Below the pieces are notes generated by a model. That model saw nothing but the letters and a program-made list of their open reading frames with translations. It had not been told where the DNA came from and did not search any database. From the IMG/VR virus record IMGVR_UViG_3300027573_000108, positions 1 to 24,764 of that record: a stretch of 24,764 nucleotides of DNA; one strand, 5' to 3'. This document shows, in pieces, positions 6,333 through 17,752 of the stretch. The first letter of the stretch is position 1; every line of letters begins with the position of its first letter. The stretch is from a virus. The translations under genes were made by a program, and so were the position numbers.

Positions 6333-7663
6333 TATGCGGTCGCGTGCGTGACTCCCTGATGCATCACAATCACACCCTTTTCACATGTATAAACTGCGTG
6401 CCCGATCGTGATTACCTGCACATCGTAGTGGTAGGCAATCAAGGGCGTGAGTGCTGCAGTGTCAGTATTCGATAGATCGAAATAGAGCTGGATTGAGCCG
6501 CCGGTAGTGTCATCATCGACTATCTTGCCGCTTGCCTGTTCAGTTGCGGTGATTGTCTTTTGAACAACCGCCTCGGCGTCTGTGTCATCTTTCGCTCTGC
6601 GCTTGATCGTCAGATATGCCTTTGTGATCGTGATGCCGCCCTGCAGTTCCGTATAGGTCCTCGTAATTCGGAGATCATCACCGCCCACGAAATCAACAAT
6701 GCGTACCTTCAGGTTATGCGGCTCGAGTTCGCGTGAATCTTCCTGGATGGTTGATCCTGAAACGCTCACGCTCGGTGCATAGACAGTGAATGGGCTCGAT
6801 ACGAGAGGCACCGTCAGCCCCTGCTCGCCACTCGAAGATACGCCCGGCGCAAACACCTGGAAGGGATTCGTGACAAGTGGCGCGACTATCGCACCCGCTG
6901 CGGCAACTGTTGGCGCAAATACCTGGAACGCATTCGTGACTAGTGGCGGTGCAATCTCTAACCCTGCCACTGCAGCCGGTGGAAATGAGTAGACAAAACC
7001 AGTGGCTGGATAGAACACGCGCGGGTGCGGCGAGGGTGGATTAGTGCCAAGTACCGTCAGAGACTCGCCAGAAACTAAATCAATTTCAGGTGAGTTGCGC
7101 CCAATCAATGGCCCATAGCGAAGGAGGCCTAATGGCACTGACAGCGGGCAGCCAGTGGCTTCCAGGATGGCATGTTCTTCTGCACTCAACACCCTGTTCC
7201 AACGCCCCAGTTCTGCCATATCAGCATTTGCAGAACCAGACCCATTGGTGTAATTGCCAATTGAATAAAGCGTCGTCAGACCTACAGGCACAGTAAAGGC
7301 TGGAGTGTTGACCGTGCCTTTGAGTATAGTGTTCGCATAGTAATTAACTGTTTCAGTCAGTTCATTCCAGTCAATAATGTGATTGCCCCAGACCCCTGAC
7401 ACAAAGATTCCCGTATCAGCCACATCTACGCGAGTTTCAACACTACCGACTCGCCAGCCTGCCTTGATGTTGTTGTCTGAATATTTTTGGAACTGAAACA
7501 AATCAACGAAGCCTGCATTAGTTCCAAATACAAAGACGTGGTCAAGTGAATCACCAGAGCTCCAGTTTGGTTTCACGCGCGCAAAGATAGTGCCCTGACC
7601 CGAATAGAACGGGATATTCGCTCCAGTTAAATAATCGCCAGCGCCTGTGAATGATCGTGCCAC
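6332..7663 (-). CDS. LamG-like adhesin with internal repeats and a baseplate-type C-terminus
   Basis: A 443-residue protein with a GTG start. Residues 1-185 have the look of a concanavalin A-like/LamG sandwich, ending in the typical ELGRWNRVLSAEEHAIL. Residues 238-301 carry three tandem copies of a roughly 22-residue module: APPLVTNAFQVFAPTV, APLVTNPFQVFAPGV and VPLVSSPFTVYAPSV. Residues 310-443 (RIVDFVGGDDLRITRTYTEL, then AYLTIKRRAKDDTDAEAVVQK, ending with a beta-rich region) resemble the N-terminal domain of upper-baseplate (BppU-like) proteins. This is most likely a tail-tip adhesin or connector partnered with the adjoining tailspike. The same repeat occurs in the small protein at 4116-4382. 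Confidence 0.7.
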   Translation of the reverse strand: MARSFTGAGDYLTGANIPFYSGQGTIFARVKPNWSSGDSLDHVFVFGTNAGFVDLFQFQKYSDNNIKAGWRVGSVETRVDVADTGIFVSGVWGNHIIDWNELTETVNYYANTILKGTVNTPAFTVPVGLTTLYSIGNYTNGSGSANADMAELGRWNRVLSAEEHAILEATGCPLSVPLGLLRYGPLIGRNSPEIDLVSGESLTVLGTNPPSPHPRVFYPATGFVYSFPPAAVAGLEIAPPLVTNAFQVFAPTVAAAGAIVAPLVTNPFQVFAPGVSSSGEQGLTVPLVSSPFTVYAPSVSVSGSTIQEDSRELEPHNLKVRIVDFVGGDDLRITRTYTELQGGITITKAYLTIKRRAKDDTDAEAVVQKTITATEQASGKIVDDDTTGGSIQLYFDLSNTDTAALTPLIAYHYDVQVITIGHAVYTCEKGVIVMHQGVTHATA

Positions 7664-11804: not shown

Positions 11805-12459
11805 TTGCGCCATTCCCCTTTCGTGGCTCCTCACGGTTGAGCCAGTTGATCAAGCGATCTCGCGTTGGCTCCTGTCCGTGCTCCTTGCACCATCGGCGCA
11901 TCTTCGCGCAGACGTGGCGCACTTTGATTTCGCCGTATGCAGGATCGGCCTGGAGTTCATCGAGATACTCGTCAGGAAAAAGATTAGAAACAGCAGAAGC
12001 AGAAGCAGGTTCTTGCACGGTGCTCGCCGCGGATGCCTCCAGCTTCTCCTTCCCTTCCCTTCCTACCCCTTCCCTTCCCCTCCTACCCGGCGGGACTGGT
12101 TCTTGCACGGTGCTTGCACCGTTCTCGCACGGTGCTGGGGGTTCGGGGAGGGTACTCGGGGGTTCTTTGATGTGGAAATGTTGGTGTTTCCAGAAGGTTC
12201 GAATGTGAATGTATCGCTTCCCTTCTGCCTCATATCGCGTGATGAATCGCGCTTCGGCCAGCTCGCGCAACAGGTATTCGACATTTACGCTGTCATAAGC
12301 CATAAGCTCAACTTTCAGTTTGCGCGGCCTGTCCTCTAATCTTCCTTCGCGATCCGCCTGGGTGAAGAGACCGGCAAATAGCCATCTCGCTTCGAACGAG
12401 AGATCCCCGATATCTTCATCCGTAAACATTTGCGGCTTGATGGTCCGAATACGACCCAC
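11737..12459 (-). CDS. Phage replisome organiser / replication initiator-like protein
   Basis: A 240-residue protein with a GTG start, opening MGRIRTIKPQMFTDEDIGDL and LSFEARWLFAGLFTQADREG, the hallmark of phage replisome-organiser N-terminal winged-helix domains (about residues 1-100). A Pro/Gly/Arg-rich linker follows (105-165). The C-terminal helical domain (FPDEYLDELQADPAYGEI, MRRWCKEHGQEPTRDRLINW) resembles a helicase-loader contact domain. It should melt the origin and recruit host helicase. The linker-coding DNA contains iteron-like repeats and a G-rich tract, as in lambda O-type genes that carry the origin inside. There is no strong Shine-Dalgarno sequence. Confidence 0.75.
   Translation of the reverse strand: MGRIRTIKPQMFTDEDIGDLSFEARWLFAGLFTQADREGRLEDRPRKLKVELMAYDSVNVEYLLRELAEARFITRYEAEGKRYIHIRTFWKHQHFHIKEPPSTLPEPPAPCENGASTVQEPVPPGRRGREGVGREGKEKLEASAASTVQEPASASAVSNLFPDEYLDELQADPAYGEIKVRHVCAKMRRWCKEHGQEPTRDRLINWLNREEPRKGNGANDDDRGTSAQAKRVAASLERDN
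12008..12136. other. Candidate replication origin: iteron-like repeats plus G-rich tract
   Basis: GGTTCTTGCACGGTGCT occurs at 12008-12024 and 12098-12114, with a third copy differing at two bases at 12120-12136. Between copies 1 and 2, 12043-12088 is almost pure pyrimidine on plus, with repeated GGGAA units on minus. The repeats lie inside the replisome-organiser gene, where lambdoid phages keep their origin. Copies 1 and 2 encode STVQEP, while copy 3 is read in another frame (APCEN). Confidence 0.5.
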
Positions 12460-12520
12460 AATTAATGGTGCTCATTTAAGGTGCGTGAGGGGTTAATGGG
12501 ATGCTTCGAAGGCGAAGCGC

Positions 12521-13192
12521 TTATACAGCGGCACGGGCCTGCTTAAGAACTGCAGCGAGGAGCCCGTGCAACGTTCGCAATCGTTCAATGAGTAAGGGAT
12601 TGTTTACATCAAGCAAATCTGATTCGATCAAATCGATCAGCTGATTCGCATAAAATGACTGCTGCATGCCACCTAATCGCTTATTGGTTTCCTGCTGTTT
12701 CTTGTTTAGCTGCTTCCCAGCCATATGCGCTATTGTCCGCTTAAGCGGAATTGGCGCACCAGCACGTGTGGTACCAAACCCGCGCACCAAGTCCTGATAG
12801 CGTACTGATGGAATCTCCACCGTTTCGCAAAGGGTATCCTGCTTGATACCTAATTCCCGCGATCGCTGGATGATGTGCCGGATGTCGTATGGAGTGTATC
12901 GCCGACCGTGGTGTGTATTCGCTGCCGCCGCACGAAGAAACAAATCCTGATCATCTTTGACAGTGACGAGCTCGCATTCGATCTCATCCACGCCTGCCTT
13001 CTCACAAGCACGTACGCGAGTGAAACCATCAATGATTCGCAGCGTTTTAGCGCATACAAGGATGGGCGGAAACTTCGCACCTAAAGCTAAACTCTCAGCG
13101 TATTGCGCTGCCGTAACTTCATCCGTTTGTGATCGTGGATAGAATGCGTAATCACGAATCAGGGATGCTACTTCTAATTTTTTAGTGCTCAT
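12521..13192 (-). CDS. ParB-like protein (ParB/Srx N-terminal domain plus HTH)
   Basis: A 223-residue protein with AGGAG five bases before its ATG. Residues 5-95 resemble the ParB N-terminal domain: FPPILVCAKTLRIIDGFTRVRA matches the GERR-like box region (read in two pieces) and NTHHGRRYTPYDI matches the third box. Residues 100-145 (IRHIIQRSRELGIKQDTLCE) look like a helix-turn-helix. The C-terminal third is helical and could dimerise. No ParA partner is present, so it may be a regulator or DNA-clamp protein rather than a partition protein. Its upstream region is 700 bases of pentanucleotide array. A parS-like palindrome exists at 20890-20905. Confidence 0.7.
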   Translation of the reverse strand: MSTKKLEVASLIRDYAFYPRSQTDEVTAAQYAESLALGAKFPPILVCAKTLRIIDGFTRVRACEKAGVDEIECELVTVKDDQDLFLRAAAANTHHGRRYTPYDIRHIIQRSRELGIKQDTLCETVEIPSVRYQDLVRGFGTTRAGAPIPLKRTIAHMAGKQLNKKQQETNKRLGGMQQSFYANQLIDLIESDLLDVNNPLLIERLRTLHGLLAAVLKQARAAV

Positions 13193-13221
13193 GTTGTCTC
13201 CTCTGTTGAATAGTTAAAACC

Positions 13222-13886
13222 AAGCCTCGCCTTGCCACGCCGGACCATACCCCGCCACGCCCTACGGTGCCTCAAACTTGAAAATTCATAAGAACCAAAA
13301 CCCCGCCTTACCTTGCCTTACCCAGCCTCACCCCGCCGTACCTAGCCAAGCCAAACCAAGCCGCAACTCATTACAATCTCAGAATGCCAGAACAAATTCC
13401 CTGCCTTACCTTGCCTTACCAGACCCCGCCAAACCGCGCCAAACCCCACCTAGCCAGGCCCCGCCATGCCTTAATTCTATGAAAACGAAATCCCTGCCCT
13501 ACCTCGCCCTACCTAGCCAGGCCTCGCTCTGCCACGCCTCGCCGGACCGTGCCCGGCCTCACCCGGCCTCACCCGAAATTTATGAAAACGAAAATCCCTG
13601 CCTCGCCGCACCTCACCTCACCACACCCCACCGTGCCGCGCCTGACCCGGCCCAGCCAAACCATACCCCGCCTCACCCAATCGTAAAACTTATGACTGCG
13701 AAAACCCTGCCCTGCCTCACCGCGCCTAGCCTTGCCTGACCCCGCCCAGCCAGACCCCGCCGGAAACTTATAAATGCAAAGAAACCCTGCCATACCTTGC
13801 CGCGCCCGACCTCACCACGCCCTGCCTAACCCAGCCGAGCCACGCCAGACCGCGCCTCACCATGCCATACCCCGCATCGCCTCGCC
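13222..13886. repeat. Seven blocks of pentanucleotide units (GGYNN on minus, NNRCC on plus)
   Basis: Blocks of contiguous 5-base units, counted by hand: 13222-13261 (8), 13297-13362 (13, with one extra base), 13401-13470 (14), 13494-13573 (16), 13598-13677 (16), 13707-13761 (11) and 13787-13886 (20). In every block nearly all units keep GG on the minus strand with Y at position 3, while positions 4-5 vary. AT-rich spacers of 23-38 bases separate the blocks. Most share a pattern near TTATGAAAACGAAAATC on plus, and five blocks begin with CTGCC. The whole 13193-13891 interval holds no convincing gene. Confidence 0.9.
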
Positions 13887-13891
13887 TCAAC

Positions 13892-14473
13892 TCATTGAAC
13901 TAAAACAAATCTCCCATAAGGCCCACCACCACCCGCGCCTGGCCGGTATTCCCCAATGCCCATTCGCTGACCTGCATCCACCAACAACCCGCGCAAAATA
14001 TCTTCGATCTGTGGCACGAGTTCGATGTCACCGAGTATGTCGAACTTAACCATCCAGCCAGGGTATAGTGGCCGACCCCGCATTATTGCCTTTCTTTGAA
14101 TGACCACTCTGCGCACGTCTACCTCATATGCGGGTAATGGCTGGCCTGTTGCGGGATCGAGCAATACGACCAGTTCGGATGGTTCAATTTGAATATGGCT
14201 CATTGCCTGCTTTAGCGGCACTCTGCCAATCTTCTGAAAACTGGCACAAGCCATGATGCTATTCCGAATTGAAATAGACCTGATACAAAGGTTGCCTTGC
14301 TCGTTGCGATACGTGCCGCGTTCTGCTTCCTCTACAGGATCGTAGATTGGCTTCATGGCACCACGAGCCACAGGAACAGCATGGCCGTTCATTGACCCCA
14401 TCGGGTTGTGCGTCATTAATCCCGGTGGCAAACCTTGAATCGAAAAAGAGAATCGTTGGATTGTGTCTAACAT
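13892..14473 (-). CDS. Unknown phage protein with RAMP/Cas7-like sequence features
   Basis: A 193-residue protein with an ATG start and GGAGAG ten bases upstream. It has an N-terminal strand (QRFSFSIQGLPPG), a middle segment CIRSISIRNSIMACASF resembling the small-residue/basic helix of RAMP proteins, beta-rich stretches (YEVDVRRVVIQRKAI, WMVKFDILGD) and a C-terminal helix followed by a Gly-rich loop and strand (GIGEYRPGAGGGGPYGRFVL). That last element resembles the glycine-rich loop of Cas7/Cas6-type RNA-binding folds. I do not know a characterised homologue, and the RAMP idea is inference. The gene is bracketed by the pentanucleotide array: one block upstream, seven downstream. Confidence 0.6.
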   Translation of the reverse strand: MLDTIQRFSFSIQGLPPGLMTHNPMGSMNGHAVPVARGAMKPIYDPVEEAERGTYRNEQGNLCIRSISIRNSIMACASFQKIGRVPLKQAMSHIQIEPSELVVLLDPATGQPLPAYEVDVRRVVIQRKAIMRGRPLYPGWMVKFDILGDIELVPQIEDILRGLLVDAGQRMGIGEYRPGAGGGGPYGRFVLVQ

Positions 14474-14507
14474 TTGCTATAATCTCTCCAATCTGTTGAA
14501 AGTGTTC

Positions 14508-14530
14508 GGGCGTCTAATGGCGCCCTTTTT
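14508..14530 (+). terminator. Hairpin with T-run reading on plus
   Basis: GGGCGTC (14508-14514), loop TAAT, GGCGCCC (14519-14525), then five T's (14526-14530) followed by CTTT. One pair is G-T on plus, which becomes A-C on minus, so the stem is stable only as plus-strand RNA. It points against the surrounding minus-strand genes and sits 35 bases upstream of the start at 14473. It would stop plus-strand transcripts coming from the array. Confidence 0.55.
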
Positions 14531-14567
14531 CTTTAGAAACCAGCTTAATCGCTCATTGCAGAAATCC

Positions 14568-14637
14568 TTGCCTCGCCTCGCCATACCTTGCCGTGCCTGA
14601 GCATGCCGCACCGAGCCACACCATGCCGGGCCCCGCC
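14568..14637. repeat. Eighth pentanucleotide block
   Basis: Fourteen units in exact 5-base register with one irregular unit (14598-14602). It has the same GGYNN pattern on the minus strand as the main array 680 bases to the left. It lies immediately after the stop of the small membrane gene ending at 14644 and upstream of the gene starting at 14473. Its flank AATCTCATAA resembles array spacers. Confidence 0.85.
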
Positions 14638-14643
14638 GCAATC

Positions 14644-14808
14644 TCATAATTCACTCCAATACTTCGCCGCATCATCTTTCCTGACCGTATAGGCCAGGTC
14701 CCGCTTCGCTGCGAGCCGTGCCGCCTCAGCCACAGCGACAAACGTCAGCACCGCACCCAGAAATGCGCCACACAAAAATGCGCCAAGGATCCACGGCCAG
14801 AAGATCAT
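14644..14808 (-). CDS. Small membrane protein (54 aa)
   Basis: A 54-residue protein from the ATG at 14808, which overlaps the stop of the upstream 37-residue gene by four bases (ATGA). It opens MIFWPWILGAFLCGAFLGAV, giving one or two hydrophobic spans, followed by an Ala-rich basic helix (AEAARLAAKRDLAYTV) and an acidic end. The paired arrangement with another tiny membrane protein recalls holin/spanin-like or superinfection-exclusion pairs, but no family is recognised. GAGG lies nine bases before the start. Confidence 0.65.
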   Translation of the reverse strand: MIFWPWILGAFLCGAFLGAVLTFVAVAEAARLAAKRDLAYTVRKDDAAKYWSEL

Positions 14809-14918
14809 CGGTTTCTGCCTCGCGGGAGCGTGTAGAGCCTCACCACCGCGACCATTGCCGCACAGAACACCAGCGCCAGGATCACTCCCCATAGGATTAG
14901 TTCGAGCGGTTCCAGCAT
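14805..14918 (-). CDS. Very small membrane protein (37 aa)
   Basis: A 37-codon frame from the ATG at 14918. MLEPLELILWGVILALVFCA continues with a hydrophobic run to about residue 27, then RLYTLPRGRNR, a positively charged tail. This is the topology of an N-out or C-in single-span peptide. It is tightly coupled to the next membrane gene by ATGA overlap, which is the main reason to believe it is translated. The ribosome site is weak. Confidence 0.55.
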   Translation of the reverse strand: MLEPLELILWGVILALVFCAAMVAVVRLYTLPRGRNR

Positions 14919-15027
14919 TGCGTTTCACATTCGCGCTGCCAGGTTGCCACCCTCAAGTTGTCGCTCGTTGCCACTAGTAGACAGCCTGAGCAGAGTCCTG
15001 ACAGCGCGAATCCGGGGGCGCTTCGAA

Positions 15028-15114
15028 TCGTGCGTGAAGCGGCACGCTATATGCCCCAATCCCTGATTAGTGGGGCACTCGCTTGCCCTCCCGGTCAGGT
15101 GACTTCACGCACGA
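15028..15114. other. Nested inverted repeat in a gene-poor gap
   Basis: TCGTGCGTGAAG at 15028-15039 pairs perfectly with CTTCACGCACGA at 15103-15114. Inside the 63-base loop, GCCCCA at 15053-15058 pairs with TGGGGC at 15071-15076. The right arm covers the stop codon of the gene ending at 15105. No T-run follows on either strand, so this is not a simple terminator. The rest of 14919-15104 has no convincing gene. Confidence 0.6.
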
Positions 15115-15338
15115 ATATCGTGGGGCCAGTCAATTCCCTCACAGGTCAGCGTTGCGCATTCCACGAGCAACGACTGCGCTATCGTCACCTGCGAGGCCAA
15201 AATCATTTGGAGCAGCAGCAACTTGTCTTCGATCTTCCCGCCCATGCCAGAGTCAATCAGCAGCAGCACCCGTGTACGCTGCGCCTCAAGCGATTCCTGC
15301 TGATTAATCAATTCTCTGAAGTTGGCGGAGAGCTTCAC
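15105..15338 (-). CDS. Small hypothetical protein, helical
   Basis: A 77-residue protein with a GTG start overlapping the previous stop by four bases. MKLSANFRELINQQESLEAQ, then RTRVLLLIDSGMGGKIEDKL and LLLLQMILASQVTIAQSLLV. It looks mostly helical, possibly a coiled coil. No family is recognised. Last gene of the Gp157/RecT cluster; its stop lies within a large inverted repeat. Confidence 0.65.
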   Translation of the reverse strand: MKLSANFRELINQQESLEAQRTRVLLLIDSGMGGKIEDKLLLLQMILASQVTIAQSLLVECATLTCEGIDWPHDIRA

Positions 15339-15550
15339 CTGTTCTCGCGCTCCTTCCGCTCGTGTTCGATCTTGTGCGTGATCACAATGAGCGCACTTGA
15401 AAGATCGAGAAGCGCATCCCTGACGTGCCGGAACTCACGACGTATGGAGCTATCAAGGGCATCCACCGCTTCGTTCGCTACGCTTATCAGGCGATGCGCT
15501 TCTTCGAGATCGTTGTCTTTGATCAGGTATTCAGGTTTCACATTGGTCAC
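15335..15550 (-). CDS. Small hypothetical protein, helical
   Basis: A 71-residue protein with a GTG start, AAGGA four bases upstream, and four-base overlaps on both sides. The sequence (MTNVKPEYLIKDNDLEEAHR, VANEAVDALDSSIRREFRHV, ending KIEHERKERENR) is charged and helical, probably a coiled coil. No function is recognised. Tight coupling to the Gp157-like gene suggests co-expression with the recombination module. Confidence 0.65.
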   Translation of the reverse strand: MTNVKPEYLIKDNDLEEAHRLISVANEAVDALDSSIRREFRHVRDALLDLSSALIVITHKIEHERKERENR

Positions 15551-16065
15551 TTGATCCTTATCGACTTGCCCCGCTCACCCAATTCAGCAAACGACAACTT
15601 CTCACCACCCTCGAGCAATTCCCGAATCATCGGATTCATAGGCTTCCTGATAAACTCGATAAATTCGTCAGGTATCTCTTCGAGGGGAGCCGTGATGATG
15701 AGCGGTGCGAGTCCGCCATTCTGCGCAGCAGTCACGCGAAAGCGTGCGGTTTCCATCGTCTTCAGCTGGTGCGCTTCGAAGAACCAGAGCAGCCTTGCCT
15801 TGAGACGATCAACTGCGCCGGCATCAACGCTCGCCCTTTCTGCCAAACGCTTCGCCTCAGCTTTTCGCGCGGCTGCTCTGGATTCCAATTCGCGAATCAA
15901 CCCACAGTACGCATCCACCTTGTCCTTCGTGGCCGTGCCCGTTTCCTCGAGCCAGGAATCAATGGCAGCTTCAGCGATTGCATCCGGGAGCTCGCCGCCC
16001 ACTTCAGTGAGCAGCGCTTCGAGTGCGGCCAGGTCGCCGGAAATCTCATATAACGTGGCGCTCAT
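15547..16065 (-). CDS. Siphovirus Gp157-like protein
   Basis: A 172-residue protein. It opens MSATLYEISGDLAALEALL, followed by a long helical region (KVDAYCGLIRELESRAAARK, AEAKRLAERASVDAGAVDRL) and the diagnostic HQLKTMETARFRVTAAQNG and IPDEFIEF segments. This architecture matches the siphovirus Gp157 family, named from Streptococcus phages and commonly encoded next to single-strand annealing proteins. Its molecular role is unclear. The start has AAGGAG seven bases upstream and overlaps the RecT-like stop by four bases. Confidence 0.82.
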   Translation of the reverse strand: MSATLYEISGDLAALEALLTEVGGELPDAIAEAAIDSWLEETGTATKDKVDAYCGLIRELESRAAARKAEAKRLAERASVDAGAVDRLKARLLWFFEAHQLKTMETARFRVTAAQNGGLAPLIITAPLEEIPDEFIEFIRKPMNPMIRELLEGGEKLSFAELGERGKSIRIK

Positions 16066-16838
16066 TTGCCTGCTCCTTCGTGCTTTGCCGCGTGGAGCTC
16101 ATTTGCCCAGCTGCCAAAGTCTTCGATGCAGTCGAGCATCTGCCCTTCCTTCAGGTCGGCACGCTTGTCCACACCCGCCACTTCCTTCATACGTGCCTGG
16201 ATGTTGGCATTCGAAATCCCATAGCCACGCAGTTCGCGGATCAGGCTGTCAAGATCGCTGACAGTCTTGATCAGCTTCTCGCGCCCGTTGCCATTGGGTT
16301 TGGTTTCGACTGTCTCTGGCAGTGCCGGCTGCTGTGGCTCATCGTGGAGCACCACATCCGGTATCGTTTCGATTTCGCTCTCATCGAGGAAACCGAGGCC
16401 GCAGACACTAAGCGTGACTCTGCGCTTCGCCTTCGTCTCAGCCTTCATGATTGCGTTGCACAGCAGATCGCCCTGGAGCCTGCCAATGGCGACTGCGCCA
16501 ATTGATTCATCAGCGCGCCCTTCCTTGGTGGTTGCCCTGGCAGTGACGATGTAGACGTCATTGATGTGCTCACGGCTGACGATCTGAATCGACACGTTGT
16601 GAATCTTGCGAAGCTGATCTGTTGCATCGCGCCGTGTGTAGAGCGTGAGCTTTCCGTTCAGGGTTATATATTGAAACGGCTGTGTAAGCGGGTTGAGTCC
16701 GACCGATCGACAAACCGCGTTGTAATAGTTGATGCGATCCTGGCTTGATAGTTTTGCCAGGTCGCCGGTAGCCAGGACGCGCTCGATGATCGCAGCGTAT
16801 TCCTGGCCCTCACCTTGAGTTGCTATTGCTGTACTCAC
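16062..16838 (-). CDS. Putative single-strand annealing protein (RecT/Rad52-like)
   Basis: A 258-residue protein with its start set at the GTG at 16838 (MSTAIATQGEGQEYAAIIER), preceded by AGGAG; a longer GTG frame to 16901 would lie in the hairpin. The core segment LNPLTQPFQYITLNGKLTLY, TRRDATDQLRKIHNVSI, DESIGAVAIGRLQGDLLCNA and MKAETKAKRRVTLSVCGLG is a conserved phage family generally found at the recT position. The C-terminal third is a variable linker plus helices. Adjacent Gp157 and a PD-(D/E)XK nuclease further along support a recombination role. Membership in the RecT/Rad52 superfamily is likely but not proven by eye. Confidence 0.7.
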   Translation of the reverse strand: MSTAIATQGEGQEYAAIIERVLATGDLAKLSSQDRINYYNAVCRSVGLNPLTQPFQYITLNGKLTLYTRRDATDQLRKIHNVSIQIVSREHINDVYIVTARATTKEGRADESIGAVAIGRLQGDLLCNAIMKAETKAKRRVTLSVCGLGFLDESEIETIPDVVLHDEPQQPALPETVETKPNGNGREKLIKTVSDLDSLIRELRGYGISNANIQARMKEVAGVDKRADLKEGQMLDCIEDFGSWANELHAAKHEGAGK

Positions 16839-16884
16839 TTTGTTATCTTGTCTCCTGTTCAATTGGCTGTATTTTTGCTCGAGG

Positions 16885-16909
16885 ACGCCCGCGCTACCCA
16901 CGCGGGCGT
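16885..16909 (+). terminator. Strong hairpin with T-run reading on plus
   Basis: Perfect 9-base arms ACGCCCGCG (16885-16893) and CGCGGGCGT (16901-16909) with a 7-base loop, followed on plus by TTTCATTT. On minus the stem is equally strong but is not followed by T's. It lies in the gap between the excisionase-like and RecT-like genes, and either stops antisense RNA or acts as an mRNA structure. Confidence 0.5.
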
Positions 16910-16915
16910 TTTCAT

Positions 16916-17128
16916 TTATGCTGATCGCTTGAAAGCTTTCCTTGGATCGAAGGGCCGCTCAACGTTCCGGTTGATCCAGTCACGCACATCTGCTTCACGA
17001 AACCTGAGCGAATGCCCAAGCTTGATGCGCGGCAGGGTTCTCGTTCCCCCGCCGCGCACATACAGCGTCTTGACTGCAATTCCGGTAATCTTCGATACCT
17101 CTTCAATCGTTAGAAGCTTGTCGATCAT
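16916..17128 (-). CDS. Excisionase / AlpA-like helix-turn-helix protein
   Basis: A 70-residue protein. MIDKLLTIEEVSKITGIAVK, then LYVRGGGTRTLPRIKLGHSL, then RFREADVRDWINRN is a textbook MerR-type excisionase (HTH_17) domain. Such proteins bend att DNA for excision or act as transcriptional regulators. It is in the early leftward operon, opposite in direction to the integrase, so expression would favour lytic growth. The ATG lies one base after the previous gene's stop, with only a weak GGCGGG upstream. Confidence 0.8.
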   Translation of the reverse strand: MIDKLLTIEEVSKITGIAVKTLYVRGGGTRTLPRIKLGHSLRFREADVRDWINRNVERPFDPRKAFKRSA

Positions 17129-17129
17129 T

Positions 17130-17396
17130 TCAATACCCGCCGTCTCTCATCTCTTGAAACTGCCGCTCCTGGCGCATTGCTGCCAGGCCCTCTTCGTTCT
17201 CCTTGATGCACTTGGCATCGCAGAAGAATCTGCCCTTGAAATCGAACAATGCGGTCTCATCCTTCTTGAACGCATAGCCGCAGTTGTGGCACTCGCGATA
17301 CTGGGCATCGCGCTGATCAACCTTGCCGGTGTCAGGATTCGTTGGCAGCGTGTGCTCATCGAACCACTGCTCATATGACGTATTCACTACTGGCAT
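17130..17396 (-). CDS. Small zinc-finger-like protein
   Basis: An 88-residue protein with GGAGG before its ATG. CHNC near residue 36 and the paired Cys in FFCDAKCIKEN around residues 58-64 form a plausible four-Cys zinc site, separated by a basic/acidic beta hairpin (FKKDETALFDFKG). The C-terminus is helical and charged. No specific family is recognised. It overlaps the upstream gene by one base. Confidence 0.65.
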   Translation of the reverse strand: MPVVNTSYEQWFDEHTLPTNPDTGKVDQRDAQYRECHNCGYAFKKDETALFDFKGRFFCDAKCIKENEEGLAAMRQERQFQEMRDGGY

Positions 17397-17752
17397 TACG
17401 CACCTCCCTGGCTCTTCACGAGCTCACGTTCTGACCGTTTCAATTCTTCGAGCAGCCTGGCGCCTTCCAATGCCACCCCGCGCTCAGTTCCATCCCATCG
17501 GGCGAGCTCCGCACGAAAATGCGGGATGGTTACATATCTGTCGTTCTCAATGTGCTCGAGGATTCGGCATCGATCGCAGACGCCTTTATGCACTTCATCC
17601 ATCACATATGCCTGCTCGCAAACGCCGCAGACGGCTTCACACCCGGCGCATACAACCACCTGCTCGGCTTTATGCGACGATTCGCCAAACGCCACTGACC
17701 AGACAATCGAGAGGCCCTTGTGCCCACCACAGAAAACGCATTCGAGTTTCAT
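17396..17752 (-). CDS. Cys-rich zinc-binding protein
   Basis: A 118-residue protein with four CxxC-type motifs: CVFC (5-8), CAGC (35-38), CGVC (42-45) and CDRC (59-62), consistent with two zinc knuckles. The C-terminal half (FRAELARWDGTERGVALEGA, RLLEELKRSERELVKSQ) is helical. It overlaps both neighbours by one base. It may bind nucleic acid or a host protein as an early take-over factor; no known family is recognised. Confidence 0.65.
   Translation of the reverse strand: MKLECVFCGGHKGLSIVWSVAFGESSHKAEQVVVCAGCEAVCGVCEQAYVMDEVHKGVCDRCRILEHIENDRYVTIPHFRAELARWDGTERGVALEGARLLEELKRSERELVKSQGGA

Follow-up and report, generated by a model that had tools for sequence, protein, structure and literature searches.

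A probable, divergent phage VIPR system whose guides v0 and v6 match genes of a sibling phage

What does a lone RAMP-like gene do beside a repeat of 5-nt period in a virus that appears to have no cas genes? The question is raised by the window, the whole 24,764-nt stretch analysed here, which is an IMG/VR virus record (IMGVR_UViG_3300027573_000108) encoding terminase, portal and integrase. A sequence-only reading of this DNA had marked the ORF at 13892..14473 (-) as an orphan Cas7/Csm3-type RAMP candidate and had guessed that, together with the periodic repeat next to it, it might form an RNA-guided or RNA-coating system. The ORF boundaries given there are exact (ATG start, 193 aa). We consider it very likely that the locus is a VIPR system, composed of a phage-encoded Vipr RAMP and eight vrRNAs and working by the mechanism proposed below; the fold, the family membership, the strand-matched arrays and two decoded targets support this.

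VIPR (Viral Interference Programmable Repeat) is already known as a kind of system, having been named in a preprint of April 2026 (PMC13142463). There, biochemistry shows that Vipr binds its vrRNAs, which are built of GGY/NN repeats and co-purify with it; double-stranded DNA is recognised through the NN pairs, one base being skipped from each pair to the next; VIPR represses reporters and phages, its natural targets are mostly competing phages or prophages, and the mechanism was tested experimentally, including in the SUSP1 and P. fulva systems (PMC13142463). New here are a divergent member of VIPR and the decoding of two of its tracts to targets in a sibling phage that lacks Vipr.

First, the AlphaFold2 model of the window Vipr is confident (pLDDT 91.7, pTM 0.86) and takes the form of a single RRM-type RAMP with a Gly-rich loop. 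Csm3-type chains of Csm complexes stand at the top of the Foldseek list (E 1.5e-5), and Csm3 is also the best PDB match found by VIA-align (Z 12.0, rmsd 3.6, 160 residues). Because the model is confident and Csm3 leads with both Foldseek and the structural aligner, the Cas7/Csm3-type RAMP reading is correct; structure prediction followed by a fold search, which the sequence-only reading had suggested as its check, came out in its favor, with Csm3/Cas7 chains topping both lists. The two segments on which that reading drew are present, CIRSISIRNSIMACA mapping to strand 62-65 and helix 66-77 of the model, and GIGEYRPGAGGGGPYGRF, the Gly-rich C-terminal loop, lying between helix 156-171 and strand 189-191. 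The RRM fold, the loop and the Z score of 12 to Csm3 liken the protein to the Csm3/Cas7 RAMPs of class 1 CRISPR-Cas systems; unlike those systems, the window has one small RAMP of 193 aa, with a gapped repeat code in place of a contiguous spacer as its guide, and neither cas genes nor a CRISPR array were found in it. A PADLOC scan of ten window proteins gave no Cas match, the window proteins scanned against Pfam and PHROGs included no Cas family, and no CRISPR-like array was among the tandem repeats of the window. The description "phage without cas genes" thus holds as far as tested (PADLOC on ten proteins, Pfam, PHROGs).

Second, the protein belongs to the Vipr family, judging by sequence comparison. 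Alone, it matched SUSP1 Vipr (PDB 36pp, chain 36pp_D) with an E-value of 3.6e-5 (phmmer), and a profile of its family (82 members) matched the same protein at 6.4e-42. The label "orphan" therefore fails, the protein falling in the named VIPR family. A Pfam scan of the 13892-14473 (-) protein gave no match, and its sole PHROG match, which covers most of the protein, was phrog_4652 (E 1e-9), a family that it shares by this match and that itself has no assigned function. Homologues were found in phages DSL-LC04 and Medea1 and in one Salmonella phage, and an alignment-based scan found others in viral contigs; single-protein queries with the window Vipr gave zero matches in viral contigs and genome contigs, and a plasmid scan gave no match. 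Although it is a Vipr by profile, it is at most 35% identical to the sampled Viprs, and in a tree of Viprs it forms a long branch whose position is without support. A further Vipr homologue was seen in a phage that had been retrieved through its DnaD-like gene (L231, 184-750 (+), E 1.8e-43).

Third, the 5-nt periodicity beside the ORF is real and far above chance. The pattern (GGYNN)5GGY has 60 overlapping matches on the minus strand, all within 13219-14637, against 0 in 100 dinucleotide shuffles. The sequence-only reading had tied this period to the roughly 6-nt spacing of Cas7 contacts with RNA, which is wrong; the period is that of the GGY/NN guide code. The matches form eight GGYNN tracts of 10-21 units each, all on the coding strand of vipr. 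Tract v0 (14568..14637, 14 units) lies upstream of vipr, and v1-v7 lie between vipr and a ParB-like gene: v1 (13782..13886, about 20 units) begins right after the vipr stop codon and is followed by v2 (13702..13761, 11 units), v3 (13598..13677, 16 units), v4 (13494..13573, 16 units), v5 (13401..13470, 14 units), v6 (13298..13362, 12 units preceded by a degenerate one) and v7 (13217..13261, about 10 units including degenerate ones), which stops just short of the ParB-like gene. The layout of a single tract upstream and several downstream of vipr is that of SUSP1, and, as in VIPR generally, the tracts are within about 1 kb of the gene and on its strand. The range of 10-21 units is an apparent difference, 9-16 repeat units per vrRNA having been reported for VIPR (PMC13142463); counted on DNA tracts rather than transcripts, seven of ours have 10-16 units, and v1, with about 20, is outside the reported range.

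Could such tracts simply be low-complexity coding sequence? A 153-aa ORF, 13278-13739 (+), is open through several of them, and similar antisense ORFs occur at 61 array loci. However, a repeat of 5 nt does not fit a triplet reading frame, tracts and the A/T-rich segments between them are both spanned by the ORF, tract lengths are variable, and stop codons are rare from GGY composition alone; we give a coding origin next to no credence.

Each tract (v0-v7) is followed by an A/T-rich element of about 25-37 nt, only loosely alike from one to the next; the element after v1, at 13762..13784 (-), exemplifies the GGGTTTCTTTGCATTTATAAGTTTCC type. These elements are presumed to be the 3' tails of the vrRNAs. 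No stable hairpin emerged when they were checked for a common structure, in contrast to the tail reported as structured in SUSP1; the published pseudoknot tail is a feature of the SUSP1 clade (PMC13142463). An Rfam scan gave no match to hammerhead or other families, and therefore no known ribozyme lies between the tracts. A search of 12400-17500 for sigma-70-like promoters gave none. A GC-rich hairpin, GGGCGTCTAATGGCGCCC, occurs at 14508-14525, between v0 and the vipr start, and may be part of the v0 transcript end or of the vipr leader.

The pairing of protein and repeat extends beyond the window. When scanned for GGYNN, all relatives retrieved through the protein but one had same-strand tracts close by; the exception, a DSL-LC04-type Vipr relative (L006), has looser GGNNN tracts at 6415-6800, in which GGA is common alongside GGY. 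With the repeat pattern alone as the query, 120 stretches were found in viral contigs; Vipr was present in 90 of these loci, with the tract on the strand of the gene in 88 and a median Vipr-tract distance of 97 nt. Of the 30 stretches without an assigned Vipr, at least one is just a simple repeat (L152). The two elements travel together in viral contigs, and the proposed link of a single phage RAMP with a 5-nt repeat was right. So was the guess of a phage-borne, RNA-guided RAMP, because the locus has VIPR anatomy, that is, a Vipr with strand-matched GGYNN tracts (PMC13142463).

The gene directly downstream of the array (12521..13192 (-), 223 aa) encodes a ParB-N-like protein, recognized by a weak Pfam match and by PHROGs, and stands where SUSP1 carries an accessory gene of its own. 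ParB-like relatives lie just 3' of Vipr on the same strand at four other loci (L057, L113, L123 and L142), making five with the window; among the relatives fetched irrespective of Vipr (L159-L277) there was one weak ParB-like match, with no adjoining Vipr. The main text of the VIPR preprint makes no mention of ParB (PMC13142463). We regard the protein as a candidate VIPR accessory (vap) that may have a helper role. Its abutting the array and its recurrence beside Vipr could also suggest that the tracts are a centromere-like DNA site for this ParB-like protein, with the RAMP unrelated. Against this, most array loci carry Vipr without such a ParB-like gene, and neither hypervariable NN positions nor strand agreement with vipr is expected of a DNA-binding site; the idea strikes us as extremely improbable.

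Fourth, the published code finds targets. We compared all eight tracts, by their NN pairs and at skips of 0-3, with sequences fetched by terminase likeness to the window, regardless of guides. Both standout matches are in L170, a 17.2-kb relative with no Vipr match: the v0 site is at +14970 and the v6 site at -12076, and both agree in 21 of 22 NN bases over 11 units, at skip 1 only. They score 19 each, where 600 shuffles per guide peak at 14, and skips of 0, 2 and 3 gave nothing comparable for v0 or v6; a rough analytic estimate of chance, assuming even base composition, is about 3e-6 per guide. The v6 site, GCATTTTTGTTTTATCCCGGCGACTGGAAGAAG, is in frame near the start of the replication gene of L170 (peptide AFLFYPGDWKKDP), a DnaD-like helicase loader by its match to phrog_186 (E 3.5e-7). 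In other phages, homologues of the replication gene keep the v6 site with a few mismatches; these sites represent one conserved motif and do not count as independent matches. Tract v0 points to a 60-aa membrane-protein-like gene, in which its site is antisense. The window has a similarly placed small membrane-protein-like gene of its own (14644..14928 (-), upstream of v0), which when checked for v0 had no match; self is therefore spared. At both sites the skip base is the wobble codon position. Targets in a competing phage, read by the 1-nt-skip rule with the wobble position skipped, are a further likeness to VIPR/SUSP1.

For the other six tracts (v1-v5 and v7) no target was found in the relatives searched. 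Two matches from an eight-unit direct scan with v3 were judged to be chance, as neither extended past the searched core. A search of genome contigs with the window terminase found no host, and a near phage record was also absent.

The low yield invites the objection that the RAMP binds the repeat RNA for some other purpose (RNA coating, a host-protein sponge or packaging) and that the decoded targets are coincidental; RNA binding by a RAMP needs no DNA targeting, and just two of the eight tracts were decoded. Yet two independent 21/22 matches fall in one sibling phage, at skip 1 only and against a null maximum of 14, the wobble position is skipped at both, and relatives have been shown to target (PMC13142463). 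We judge this alternative very unlikely.

Scanning all 367 tracts of 102 Vipr loci under four skip rules (the L152 simple-repeat locus was left out of this final scan) gave matches of at least 17 only with skip 1; these came from six tracts, two of them from the window, compared with 0 or 1 in shuffles. The published skip rule thereby receives an independent, if modest, check. Elsewhere, a tract of Pseudomonas phage Medea1 (L004, 4873-4932) matches the related L021 at +986 (23/24 NN bases, skip 1), and an L021 tract (6905-6954) matches Medea1 at +1014, in an annotated tail assembly gene (19/20, skip 1). These two VIPR-bearing Pseudomonas phages thus appear, by their sequences, to target each other. 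As to gene content, L170 carries a ResIII-type helicase gene and an HNH endonuclease gene from its replication gene to its small membrane gene (12707-14879 (-)), and the window carries VIPR in the matching interval, which is possibly an exchangeable cassette.

Returning to the VIPR reading, homology to the SUSP1 and P. fulva systems suggests how the locus would work. Vipr subunits would coat each GGY/NN tract, the protein gripping GGY and displaying the NN pairs outward; the complex would then bind double-stranded DNA matching NN, with one base skipped between pairs, and once bound would block transcription of rival phages. By the same analogy, the vrRNAs of the window are presumably expressed and processed and form an RNP with Vipr, which would bind DNA and repress. 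We also raise, as a doubtful suggestion, that the locus is a distinct VIPR subtype, in which a divergent Vipr and unstructured, A/T-rich-tailed vrRNAs are aimed at siblings of the same group and the ParB-like accessory aids the RNP on DNA.

As an RNA-guided mechanism VIPR was described only very recently; it has been proposed to be older than CRISPR, and few of its systems have been tested. The window locus adds a divergent and independent case, where the gapped code as published finds targets in a sibling phage by itself. Its recurrent ParB-like neighbor is a testable accessory, and the decoded target in a replication gene, together with the skipped wobble position, supports both the code and a role for VIPR in conflict of phage against phage.
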